DNA from: SAR202 cluster bacterium
Lineage (GTDB): Bacteria > Chloroflexota > Dehalococcoidia > Lucifugimonadales > VXLM01
Direction: 5' to 3'
DNA: 33,101 nt
Assembly (NCBI GenBank): GCA_022448725.1
Contig: JAKUTR010000021.1
Span: forward strand, 1-33,101
Below are positions 17,437-21,567 of this stretch, one piece after another; position 1 is the stretch's first letter; the number at the start of each line of letters is the position of its first letter. A program made the position numbers and the translations under genes. The notes under the pieces were generated by a model. The model had not been told where the DNA came from, ran no database searches, and saw only the letters and a list, made by a program, of their open reading frames with translations.

Positions 17437-18330
17437 CTAGTTAACGAACCAGCGGATCGCAAAACGAGTCGAACTGTCCTGAAAGCTTAGGGAATATGGG
17501 TCGGTAATTCGGAGAGTGGCTAATCCATCGGTGCGTACCACGGCCCAGCCAAAGTCCCAGCCCCCGCTTACGTACTCCATAGGGATTCCGGGTTGTACTC
17601 TTACAAATGGATGAGTGGCGGCCAATAAATGTCCTGTCTCTGTTGCATAGTACGCGGAGTTGGTGTGAACGAACATTTCGTGACTGAGGGCCCCATCTGG
17701 GTTGCCTGTCAGTTGTTCCGCAACATCTCTGATACTTACCTTAAGCTCTCTGCCTTTAGTAAACGCCTCAACCAAAGCATCGGTAGAACCTGAGAGCACG
17801 TTACCGTCTTTATCATGTGAGAGCACTTCCTCCCATTCGTCACGAACTCTGAATCGGTAGACTTCAAAGTCATACACGAAGTTCTGACTGGGAGCGTTGC
17901 TGGTGAGGTCGTGCTGGCTATCGAGATGGTACTTTGGCATATCGATATACTCGTTGGGATCTTTGCCATCAACAGGGGACCCTAGGTCCTGTCCATCAAG
18001 ATAGGGGCGAGCTATAGCTTGCTGGCCATTTTCGTTGTACATGAAAAACGACATAGAAGGCCGTGGTCCAAATTTGTCGAACGGCTCGACAGGTTGCCTC
18101 TGTGTCATGATCCCAGCCACCCACTGGTCTTCCACTAGGTAAGTGCAACGAAATTCTGATACCTCTTTAACTACTTCTGTGTTGCAGGACGTCGTATCAA
18201 TGTGTTCGTTATAGAGGAATTCTGTATAGACGCGGAGGTCTGCGCCACGCCGGATGGCCTCTCGCAGAGCCTCAGGACTTCCAGATATAGGCTCGCGTCT
18301 TTCGTTAAGTTCAAGCGGGGTTGTCCACAT
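17437..18330 (-). CDS. Uncharacterised protein with two tandem copies of one domain
   Basis: I do not recognise the family. The 297 residues hold an internal duplication. ISGSPEALREAIRRGADLRV at 15-34 matches LSGSTDALVEAFTKGRELKV at 179-198, with ten of twenty residues identical. Each copy is followed by a beta-rich stretch ending in an aromatic segment (PSMSFFMYNENGQ near 91; MEYVSGGWDFGWAVVRTDG near 251). No signal peptide, membrane helix or metal motif is seen. The start ATG lies only 5 bp after the stop of the barrel-type protein gene, with GGAG about 11 nt upstream, so the two are co-translated. The role is probably tied to the two larger upstream proteins, perhaps binding the same ligand. 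Confidence 0.75.
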   Translation of the reverse strand: MWTTPLELNERREPISGSPEALREAIRRGADLRVYTEFLYNEHIDTTSCNTEVVKEVSEFRCTYLVEDQWVAGIMTQRQPVEPFDKFGPRPSMSFFMYNENGQQAIARPYLDGQDLGSPVDGKDPNEYIDMPKYHLDSQHDLTSNAPSQNFVYDFEVYRFRVRDEWEEVLSHDKDGNVLSGSTDALVEAFTKGRELKVSIRDVAEQLTGNPDGALSHEMFVHTNSAYYATETGHLLAATHPFVRVQPGIPMEYVSGGWDFGWAVVRTDGLATLRITDPYSLSFQDSSTRFAIRWFVN

Positions 18331-18335
18331 GATAT

Positions 18336-19913
18336 CTATGACTCCAAGAAGTTTTCATCGTCACGCAAAGCGTTCCGATGAGCAATGTATTCGACCTCTA
18401 CTTCAACATGGTGCACAGAAACGTCTGTAATGAGCTTCTCATCTCTCTTAACGAGATCGATACGAAGGTTGTTGACACCCCGTACTGGTAATAGACCCTG
18501 CGTGAGGTCGACGTGTGCTCGGTACCCTGAAATAGGCATGTCAGGCTTGGGCCGGAGATGGTAAGTCCAATCAGCCCATCTTATAGCTGAATCTGGGACT
18601 TCCAGTCCGTTCCAGTGGATCCTGATCTCGTCGGTGTGGAGCAGTTGGTTTATAAGAACGTTAAGTTTGCAAGCCCAGAGCTGGCCAGTATCAGCTTTAC
18701 CTGCGATGTCATCATGTATCTCTAGCTTGATTTCCGTACCCGTCTCTTCAGGTTTTAGAATCACAGGGAGTTGATCAGTTAACCCAGCGAACCTCCCTAT
18801 GCCACTCCGGGCAGGCGTCGGCGGAAGCCTATAAGTTTTGTCAAAATTCTCAATTAGCTCAGGGTATCCAAGGAATCGCAGTCGTCCAGCGCCCTCAAAG
18901 TCATACGGATAACGGTTGGGAGGTGGGTAGTAGGTGGCGAACAATATACCTTGAGCCCCAACGGCATAGCAGTTACTCACGGCAGCGTAATTGGTCTTTC
19001 GAGTGTTTTGGTCATCTACATCCTGTCCTGCAAGTACCTTCACACTGGTTCCTCTGGTCGATTCTACAACCGATTGGAGATCAGTCGTCTCATTTGCCCA
19101 ACCGCCCCGCACAGGCATCGCAACAACGGTGTGCACGATCTCTTCCCGTATCCATCGAGGTACATCCAATCCTATAGACAGGGAACCTTCAAGTGTCGCT
19201 GGAACACGGACAACCAGCCGTTTTTTTCGACCTTGTGTTTCTGAAGCTTGTTCACAGATCGCTCGGACTTGGCGTACGAATTCTGTCAATGTGTCAGTGT
19301 GATCGTTGACTTCAGATCGAGCTATTAATGGAGTGTAGTCATCTAGGTTTAGTTCTATCCCATCAGTAGGATAGTCCTCTAGTAGTTCCCTGATAATAGC
19401 AAGCCGATTTTCTCTTACCTCAGGATGAGAATAGGAGAGACGACCGGGGTTGTCCTTGGCTGCCTCGGGGAACGCGGGCTCAGGTCCTACCTGCCACTCG
19501 GGATGAGAGGAGGTGAAGTCGGCCACACGGCAGTTGGTTACACGGCCGTGATCCGTGTGGTTCATATTTAGTAGCAGGTGTGGGAGAAACTGAAACCCAC
19601 GTTTGTGTGCATGATCACAGACCAGTTTAAGAGGATCTGTTCCGCTCTCGATCATCTGTGTTGCGTTTGCACCGGCACGGTACCAGATGAGGTGGTCAGT
19701 TAGATCGACGTTATGGCCCCAGCGCTCTCCTGCTCTGGTTTCGTATAGTAGTACGCTGCAATCACCAACCGCATAGGTTATTGTGTCGATCCCTAGGTCC
19801 AGTAACTCGTCGATTGGCTGGCAGTATTGCTCAGTGCCCATCGGGGGTTCATAGAGATAGACGCTGGAATGTCTTCCATCAGTGTAGAACATTACTTCAT
19901 GTGTTTGGCTCAA
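18336..19913 (-). CDS. Glycoside-hydrolase-like TIM-barrel protein, paralogue 2
   Basis: This 525-residue protein seems to be a TIM barrel resembling the GHL10/DUF187-type glycoside-hydrolase-like proteins, with a C-terminal beta-sandwich. Barrel-like features are YTDGRH at the start, DTITYAVGD, LKLVCDHAHKRGFQFLPHLLLN (strand 3) and the strand-4 motif D184-GIE-LNLDDY with acidic residues that could be catalytic. LVVRVPATLE and VKVLAGQD follow. Residues about 400-515 look all-beta (EIRIHWNGLEVPDSA). There is no signal peptide. The TTG start is well supported by AAAGGAGG 5 nt upstream. It is clearly paralogous to the neighbour at 20014-21567. The enzyme assignment is inference and the substrate is unknown. 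Confidence 0.72.
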   Translation of the reverse strand: MSQTHEVMFYTDGRHSSVYLYEPPMGTEQYCQPIDELLDLGIDTITYAVGDCSVLLYETRAGERWGHNVDLTDHLIWYRAGANATQMIESGTDPLKLVCDHAHKRGFQFLPHLLLNMNHTDHGRVTNCRVADFTSSHPEWQVGPEPAFPEAAKDNPGRLSYSHPEVRENRLAIIRELLEDYPTDGIELNLDDYTPLIARSEVNDHTDTLTEFVRQVRAICEQASETQGRKKRLVVRVPATLEGSLSIGLDVPRWIREEIVHTVVAMPVRGGWANETTDLQSVVESTRGTSVKVLAGQDVDDQNTRKTNYAAVSNCYAVGAQGILFATYYPPPNRYPYDFEGAGRLRFLGYPELIENFDKTYRLPPTPARSGIGRFAGLTDQLPVILKPEETGTEIKLEIHDDIAGKADTGQLWACKLNVLINQLLHTDEIRIHWNGLEVPDSAIRWADWTYHLRPKPDMPISGYRAHVDLTQGLLPVRGVNNLRIDLVKRDEKLITDVSVHHVEVEVEYIAHRNALRDDENFLES

Positions 19914-19947
19914 TGAAGCCTCCTTTGAAACTATTTATTTTTTCGAT

Positions 19948-19962
19948 CGAGGCATTGCCTCG
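19948..19962. repeat. 15-bp inverted repeat between the two paralogue genes
   Basis: CGAGGCATTGCCTCG has perfect 7-bp arms around one base. On the minus strand it is followed by ATCGAAAAAAT, so it is not a T-tailed terminator for the upstream paralogue. It stands 35 bp before the TTG start of paralogue 2, in the 100-bp gap, and could be an operator or a leader hairpin. Confidence 0.4.
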
Positions 19963-20013
19963 TTACAAACGGTCATCTATACAATTCGAATATACGATTC
20001 ATAATTTAACCAC

Positions 20014-21567
20014 CTACATTTGACCATTGACAGGGATAGGGACATCTTTGTAGTTGACCCAAATTTCTACAGACTGCAATACGCGATCGGCTGTGAACCT
20101 TGCGTACCGTTTTTCCATCGTGACCTCAACTAGGTTTTTACCGTGCTGAATTAGATCATGCGGAACATCAAACTCGAACCAATAGTGAGTATTGATTCGT
20201 ATATCCATGCCTACTTTCACAGGGAAGTAAGGCACGGATCCACCATAGAAATGGCTGGTTTTAGCATCGGAGTCATTAAGAGTTTGGCCATTTAATTTGA
20301 ATACAATAGTGTCATTAGGGTGAGGTTGTACAAGACGGATCCCAAGCTTGACACTGTCTAGTTCCCCATCGGTAATTGCGGAGTCAAGGTCATCATTGAC
20401 CGAAACTTCTACAGCTGCTGTGGTATCTTGATCAAGGGTAAACGGGATGTCGCGAACCGGCATGTACGGGTCAGGTTTCGCAGTCGTTGGGGCAACCATG
20501 TAGTGTTTCGTTTTACGGGCGTACGCATCCGGATCGGCCATTTCTCGCATTATTTTGTATTCGTCATCCCCATGTGGCCAAGGGAGATCAGCGAGGTAGA
20601 TCCCACTGGCACCGGCTGCCACGAAATTAGTTGCGGTGGCTCTAGTCATTTCTGGTGTTACAACATGGAAGCGGTCATCGTAAGGCTCTCGACCTAACGG
20701 AGGATAGATATTAGTTCCCACCTTGCTTGCTTCCTGTGCTATCCACTCGAAGTTCGGCTTAGGGTCAATCAATAAAACGTCGCCGAATGGCGTGATCCAG
20801 TCGAGTAAGCCTTCACTTGTCCATGTTCTTAGGTCCATTCCAGCTTCAAGACAGGCACGTTCAGTTGGGTGGACTCGGACTGACAGCGAGAGATGTTGTC
20901 CGCGCTTTTTCCCAATGTCGTCCAGGAGACTGCGGACATCACGTATCCATTGCGTCAATATGGGAATATTCTCCTGGACCTGTGAAGGTTTGAAGAAAAC
21001 CCGTATGTACTCGTCAATCTCGATGCCGTCAGCGTTGTATCGGTCGCATACTTCTTCGATTACAGAAAGCCGTTCATTTCGGACGTCTTCGCGAGCGAAA
21101 TCGAGACAGGTAGAGACGTAAGGTCTGCCAGGATCCTCTTCACCAATCATCACGTCTGGGTTCTCGTACTTGAGTCTACCAATGGAATAGGTGCTCTCTT
21201 CTGGAGCACCGGCATCATTGATACGGATACTGCCAACGAGTTTGATCCCCTTTTCATGAGCTCGGTCAACAACTATTTTGAATGGGTCATAACCTGCCTT
21301 AATGGCTTGTCGTAGGTTTTCTTCCGCGCGCCACCAGACCAGACCAGCGGTATGTTTTGTTGCCTTCTCACCGAACTTGTAACCAACTTTGGTATCGTAA
21401 AGAAACGTCTGGCCCATCCCAGTCCCGTACACAATCGTGTCGACTGGTGTACCAATTAAATCATCTATGGGTTTACGGAGCTGATGCAGGCTCATTGGTG
21501 GGTCAAATCTGTACATTAGATAGTGCCGCGAATCGTGGTAGTAGATCAGCTTTGGTTTTGCTTTCAT
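20014..21567 (-). CDS. Glycoside-hydrolase-like TIM-barrel protein, paralogue 1
   Basis: This 517-residue protein is the first gene of the minus-strand trio and a paralogue of the next gene. The two share the opening Y-x-D-x-RH-x4-Y-x3-PPM, the stretch PID-L----DTI-Y--G, the -R-A-E/G--K/T-- and D--HE/KKG patterns, and the strand-4 motif. Here that motif is D180-GIEIDEY. The barrel continues with LSLSVRVHPTERACLEAG and GASGIYLADLPWPHG. Residues about 385-510 form a beta domain (DTIVFKLNGQTLNDSD). No signal peptide is present. The ATG has AGAGGTAAC about 11 nt ahead. Related proteins annotated as family 10 glycosylhydrolase-like act on carbohydrates, but I cannot confirm activity here. Confidence 0.72.
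   Translation of the reverse strand: MKAKPKLIYYHDSRHYLMYRFDPPMSLHQLRKPIDDLIGTPVDTIVYGTGMGQTFLYDTKVGYKFGEKATKHTAGLVWWRAEENLRQAIKAGYDPFKIVVDRAHEKGIKLVGSIRINDAGAPEESTYSIGRLKYENPDVMIGEEDPGRPYVSTCLDFAREDVRNERLSVIEEVCDRYNADGIEIDEYIRVFFKPSQVQENIPILTQWIRDVRSLLDDIGKKRGQHLSLSVRVHPTERACLEAGMDLRTWTSEGLLDWITPFGDVLLIDPKPNFEWIAQEASKVGTNIYPPLGREPYDDRFHVVTPEMTRATATNFVAAGASGIYLADLPWPHGDDEYKIMREMADPDAYARKTKHYMVAPTTAKPDPYMPVRDIPFTLDQDTTAAVEVSVNDDLDSAITDGELDSVKLGIRLVQPHPNDTIVFKLNGQTLNDSDAKTSHFYGGSVPYFPVKVGMDIRINTHYWFEFDVPHDLIQHGKNLVEVTMEKRYARFTADRVLQSVEIWVNYKDVPIPVNGQM

Follow-up and report, generated by a model that had tools for sequence, protein, structure and literature searches.

Two adjacent genes of a SAR202 bacterium, here termed gA and gB, are probably members of a large and old expansion of cytoplasmic glycosidases related to family GH156, which runs to about 33 copies in this genome, most of them with a changed substrate pocket. 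The two proteins are most likely cytoplasmic inverting glycosidases that act on substrates other than sialic acid. From the fold of gA, homology, copy number, the age of the subfamilies, residue conservation and the lack of room for a signal peptide, all of which are directly supported, we infer catalysis, inversion and a change of substrate in gA and gB. The genes lie in a window of 33,101 nucleotides, which is the whole stretch of DNA that was analyzed, and a preliminary description had grouped them with a third gene, gC, as a unit that might constitute an undescribed intracellular pathway. As a three-gene pathway this proposal fails, but it deserves further study as a pointer to a GH156-related expansion in which active sites have diversified. 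The features of the locus are as follows.

20014-21567, minus strand: gA, 517 residues with an ATG start, GH156-related on the basis of the ORF call, phmmer, the model and the fold match
20494-21567, minus strand: predicted (beta/alpha)8 barrel of gA, about residues 1-358, from the secondary structure of the model
20050-20442, minus strand: predicted C-terminal beta-sandwich of gA, about residues 376-506, from the secondary structure of the model
21532-21534, minus strand: codon for Asp12 of gA, aligned with the general base Asp14 of EnvSia156
21223-21225, minus strand: codon for Arg115 of gA, aligned with Arg129 of EnvSia156 (carboxylate binding)
18336-19913, minus strand: gB, 525 residues with a TTG start, a paralogous GH156/GHL10-related protein
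19878-19880, minus strand: codon for Asp12 of gB, aligned with Asp14 of EnvSia156
19557-19559, minus strand: codon for His119 of gB, aligned, by sequence alignment only, with the acid His134 of EnvSia156
17437-18330, minus strand: gC, 297 residues with an ATG start and an internal repeat

All three are intact open reading frames on the minus strand, with 100 bp between gA and gB and 5 bp between gB and gC. A plausible ribosome-binding site precedes each start, and the TTG codon of gB is preceded by a strong AAGGAGG. An alignment of gA with gB spans both proteins in full, with 25% identity (E 4e-46). Coordinates and alignment thus agree with the earlier account of three real genes, two encoding related tandem proteins of around 520 residues and the third following the second after 5 bp. 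The strand-4 motifs also differ as that account had quoted them, being DGIELNLDDY and DGIEIDEY.

The predicted structure of gA (pLDDT 93.2, pTM 0.92) consists of a TIM barrel followed by an all-beta C-terminal domain, and its closest match is EnvSia156, the inverting exosialidase of CAZy family GH156 (PDB 6RZD, 6S00 and 6S04; PMC6811678, PMC6254351). The likeness extends over the whole chain (VIA Z 34.0, rmsd 3.0 over 461 residues at 22% identity; about 20-22% identity in general), such that residues 4-506 of the model superpose on residues 6-502 of EnvSia156, C-terminal module included. Foldseek gives the same pairing with a TMq of 0.77 and an E value of 1.6e-34. At the level of sequence, phmmer matches 6rzd with E values of 4.7e-20 for gA and 1.4e-11 for gB, and a profile built from the gA/gB family matches it at E 1.6e-63. 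EnvSia156 is the sole convincing solved-structure relative of either protein. On the strength of this homology, gB would also be expected to combine a barrel with a beta-sandwich.

Next in the ranking by VIA Z comes the Clostridioides difficile autolysin Cwp19 (PDB 5OQ2), a related GHL10 barrel that scores 23.6 in the form of 5oq3, ahead of all remaining barrels, which reach about 18 at most. Cwp19 differs from EnvSia156 as a relative of gA in that the match is to the barrel only and the Z score is lower, and the two solved enzymes are reported to have no active-centre residues in common (PMC6811678). Against the Pfam GHL10 family (PF02638, cut-off 27.9 bits), gB scores 44.8 bits and gA 22.3 bits, and a match at E 0.01 or better is found for 25 of the 32 near-complete copies in the genome. 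Membership of GH13 can be rejected, as the alpha-amylase family PF00128 matches neither gA nor gB in a Pfam search; this family was not found anywhere in the genome, and is present in 13 of 14 control genomes. The description of the proteins as glycoside-hydrolase-like, with a barrel and an all-beta part, is therefore upheld by the gA model, but GH156 is closer than the GH13 and GH42 folds that had been suggested for comparison.

The catalytic roles within EnvSia156 have been assigned by Bule et al. (PMC6811678): Asp14 is the general base, His134 the acid, and Arg129, Arg202 and Asn346 bind the carboxylate of the substrate. The chain numbering of EnvSia156 was verified against the residues in that paper before alignments were scored. 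Equivalents of Asp14 and of the strand-4 residue Glu197 are found in all 32 near-complete copies, gA and gB included. The complete set of D14, R129, H134, R202 and N346 is retained in seven of these paralogues, C15:21724-23271 and C23:140319-141911 among them, and the carboxylate triad in 12. In five of these 12 copies a Tyr is aligned at position 134 with a His one residue earlier, where an alignment shift is possible. The motif RMN(E/S/N)HYD, in which the His comes one position before that of His134 in EnvSia156, occurs in five triad-intact copies (L021:5559-7124, L032, L033, L017:12344-13924 and L037), which are possibly a shifted-His variant.

Both gA and gB share with EnvSia156 the strand-1 Asp and the strand-4 Glu, and depart from it elsewhere. 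Compared with EnvSia156, gA has neither the His that acts as acid nor the Asn of the triad: Asp12 and Arg115 are kept, Gly120 is found at the position of His134 in an ungapped local alignment, and Asp327 at that of Asn346. Its loss of Arg202 is uncertain, as Arg189, an invariant residue, stands one or two columns away in the alignment. In gB, the sequence alignment places the Asp12/His119 dyad intact and the entire triad as replaced by Leu114, Asp and Thr. The resulting signatures, DRNDGEDYRD for gA and DLNMHENDRT for gB, are each identical in the orthologues from genomes G063 and TB39. The earlier suggestion of two activities or substrates gains from these differing signatures, each conserved in the orthologues of two other genomes, and the specificities probably do differ. 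Its focus on the strand-4 acids as a catalytic pair is doubtful, since the tested catalytic residues of EnvSia156 are Asp14, on strand 1, and His134 (PMC6811678).

A mechanism may be outlined along these lines. Each enzyme would cleave one kind of imported glycoside inside the cell. The reaction would take place in the barrel by single displacement with inversion, and Asp12 on strand 1 would be the general base. The Arg/Arg/Asn set that holds the carboxylate of sialic acid is changed in most copies, among them gA and gB, and the substrates are thus probably not ordinary sialosides. The protein gB would work with a retained Asp12/His119 dyad after loss of the carboxylate triad. Because Gly120 occupies the place of the acid His, gA would need another proton donor. 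As the GH156 mechanism is characterized, the residue changes can be turned into specific predictions: full-set copies would be sialidases, those of the gB type would use Asp and His on uncharged sugars, and those of the gA type would need another acid.

Two other readings of these active sites have to be weighed. One takes gA and gB for pseudoenzymes, or for proteins that bind sugars without hydrolyzing them, which would fit the missing acid His and incomplete triad of gA and the missing triad of gB. We regard this as quite improbable, as both the base Asp and the Glu on strand 4 persist in 32 of 32 copies and the orthologues of gA are under purifying selection, with a dN/dS of about 0.10-0.15. 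This ratio was taken between homologues from other genomes, the window genes being saturated at synonymous sites against their own orthologues. A binding or regulatory role may nevertheless apply to copies that are without the His. Active sites that are altered yet preserved suggest new substrates rather than decay.

The other reading is unlikely too. It takes both proteins for genuine GH156 sialidases whose substrates would be imported glycosides of sialic acid, KDN or related nonulosonic acids. The whole-chain fold match to EnvSia156, the catalytic Asp in both proteins, and the equivalents of Arg129 in gA and His134 in gB are what it would predict. Against this, gB has none of the triad and gA only part of it, and the changes are identical in orthologues. 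Moreover, the NanE family (PF04131) was not found in this genome or in three relatives, versus its presence in 8 of 14 control genomes, and canonical sialate catabolism via NanE is therefore rejected for these four genomes. Glycosidases directed at substrates other than sialic acid accordingly remain our preferred reading of gA and gB.

With regard to cellular location, the Asp14 equivalent is found at residues 11-24 in 30 of the 32 copies, and the two copies with longer starts resemble upstream extensions of the reading frame. In both gA and gB it is already residue 12, the chain beginning at strand 1 as in EnvSia156, which leaves no room for a signal peptide. This bears out the earlier remark that these are intracellular proteins without signal peptides. 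According to the founding GH156 study, many other homologues carry signal peptides (PMC6254351). The missing signal peptides are best explained by cytoplasmic enzymes that act on imported material.

The family is present on a large scale. Within the genome of 2.09 Mb, which is 95% complete, there are 33 matches, comprising 32 near-complete copies and one that is cut by a contig end, and these account for roughly 2.5% of the DNA when estimated at about 1.57 kb per copy. Contig C10 has one more match, weak and partial, that probably represents another kind of protein, of GHL10 type. Three genomes of the same genus (G063, SB0661_bin_13; G037, APA_bin_48; G078, IRC4_bin_30; names assigned from identical match positions) have 35-37 matches each, inclusive of a few contig-end fragments and weak matches; judging by their names, we take these metagenome-assembled genomes to be sponge-derived. 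On the same basis, with a few fragments and weak matches counted, there are 22 matches in OSU_TB39 (G015), a SAR202 genome from another family of the order, and 23 in G031. Elsewhere the family is rare: among 147 genomes sampled from the order, 18 show any match, some of them weak or partial, and about 88% have none. In the class sample, 14 of 294 genomes have any match, again some weak and partial, and in the phylum sample 105 of 400 genomes are matched, mostly by short and weak hits with few of full length. GH156 itself, in contrast, was described by its founding paper as a small family spread over about eight phyla, whereas here there are dozens of copies per genome.

The relationships between copies were followed in a tree, built with FastTree, of EnvSia156 and 100 homologues drawn from four genomes. 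For 25 of the 32 copies the nearest neighbor is in G063, and for only two is it in the same genome; 14 of the 32 are closer to a TB39 copy than to any copy alongside them in their own genome. Since the copies group with their counterparts in G063 and TB39, the subfamilies are older than the split of these lineages. The pair L026/L031 is the only recent duplication in the tree among the copies of this genome. A recent tandem duplication giving rise to gA and gB is rejected, since the orthologues of each in other genomes are closer to it than its neighbor is.

In having tens of ancient and divergent paralogues from a single enzyme family within one genome, the expansion resembles those already recognized in SAR202, namely the FMNO (COG2141), enolase superfamily (COG4948), RHD (COG4638) and sulfatase (COG3119) families (PMC6946804, PMC10444878). 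It is unlike them in involving a glycosidase-like family, which is unmentioned in the searched passages of these two papers. Paralogue surveys of SAR202, in the parts consulted, center on oxidases, enolases and sulfatases (PMC6946804). More generally, GH156 does not appear in the searched main-text passages of the SAR202 paralogue papers, whose supplements may hold a count; a later paper lists it for a single large SAR202 genome as part of the CAZy gene set (PMC11994032). Among the papers searched, none ties GH156 to sponge Chloroflexota. Sponge-associated SAR202 genomes have been reported to be without carbohydrate transporters and degradation pathways, in bins that may represent other lineages (PMC6306507).

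The roughly 33 GH156-related copies point to the uptake and intracellular cleavage of diverse glycosides. A broader proposal, which we put forward tentatively and consider possible rather than probable, is that bacteria of the SAR202 order related to sponge-associated genomes carry around 30 cytoplasmic glycosidases of the GH156 fold whose Asp-based inverting scaffold has been adapted, one subfamily after another, from sialic acids to many other imported glycosides. If true, a clade described as having no carbohydrate metabolism would prove to harbor a hidden one, and several new glycosidase families would come to light.

The surroundings of the paralogues show no recurrent partner gene, with 96 flanking proteins spread over 140 Pfam families and at most three per family. 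As the family has no recurrent genomic partner, the genome offers no substrate clue in this respect. Within L039:2118-9299 (contig C6 of the same genome), one copy with the full signature lies amid genes for a sulfatase, an SDR, a GFO/IDH/MocA protein, a 2-hydroxyacid dehydrogenase and an aldo/keto reductase. This is a clear carbohydrate-catabolic cluster and the best lead to a substrate; others of the paralogues sit among housekeeping genes.

It is very unlikely that gA, gB and gC form a functional operon in which an enzyme pair and a partner serve a dedicated pathway. The shared strand and the short spacing of the genes are in keeping with such an operon, as is the restriction of gC to genomes that also carry many GH156-related genes. 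Adjacency, however, is not kept in other genomes, and a conserved gA-gB-gC unit is rejected on this ground. Directly downstream of the gA orthologues (60-71% identity; L001, L002 and L003), where 1.5 to 8 kb of sequence is present, no family member is encoded, and the gB orthologues sit at loci other than those of gA. Homologues of gC, with 48-55% identity at six loci (L087-L092) in five other genomes, adjoin no family member, the one exception in proximity lying about 7 kb away, and in three genomes of the same genus gC has no match at all. With the homologues thus scattered apart, an outcome that the preliminary description had itself named as refuting its proposal, the three genes cannot carry the claim of an undescribed intracellular pathway, and a genome-wide expansion of a single family describes the situation better.

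The description of gC as a duplicated-domain protein is a fair one, given an internal repeat of about 34 residues in which residues 2-34 match 165-197 at 36% identity (E 1.6e-4). Six of the 147 genomes sampled from the order carry this small family, which is characterized by a repeated motif, W..L....G...GS...L..A...G. Its homologues from other genomes are under purifying selection, with a dN/dS of 0.15 between them. No match to gC was found in Pfam, NCBIfam or PDB sequences. The model is poor (pLDDT 56, from 7 sequences), and a fold search with it returned nothing at E 1e-3 or better. The one lead to its identity is faint: 5xta_A, a protein of the VirK family, is matched in part, over about 105 columns at E 0.17, and no conclusion is drawn from this. 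All genomes with gC are rich in GH156-related genes, the five other such genomes all falling among the 9 other rich ones of 146, a co-occurrence with a hypergeometric probability of 2.4e-7 that ignores shared ancestry and habitat. This may reflect shared ecology. The adjacency of gC to the gA/gB family is seen in this genome only, and functionally it probably stands outside that family.

Conserved pairing is seen elsewhere in the family. A tandem pair of full-signature copies on contig C15 of this genome (C15:21724-24893; L034:5225-8403) is also found in G063 (C131:29646-32791; L161), and each member groups with its counterpart in the tree, making this a conserved pair, unlike gA-gB. Lastly, a single-contig genome of the order (G033:C1) harbors a separate array of some 20 longer relatives of about 600 residues, several in tandem, whose match to the profile is confined to the barrel (for example at 1642000-1651000 and 1952000-1961000) and which apparently represent another expanded subfamily.
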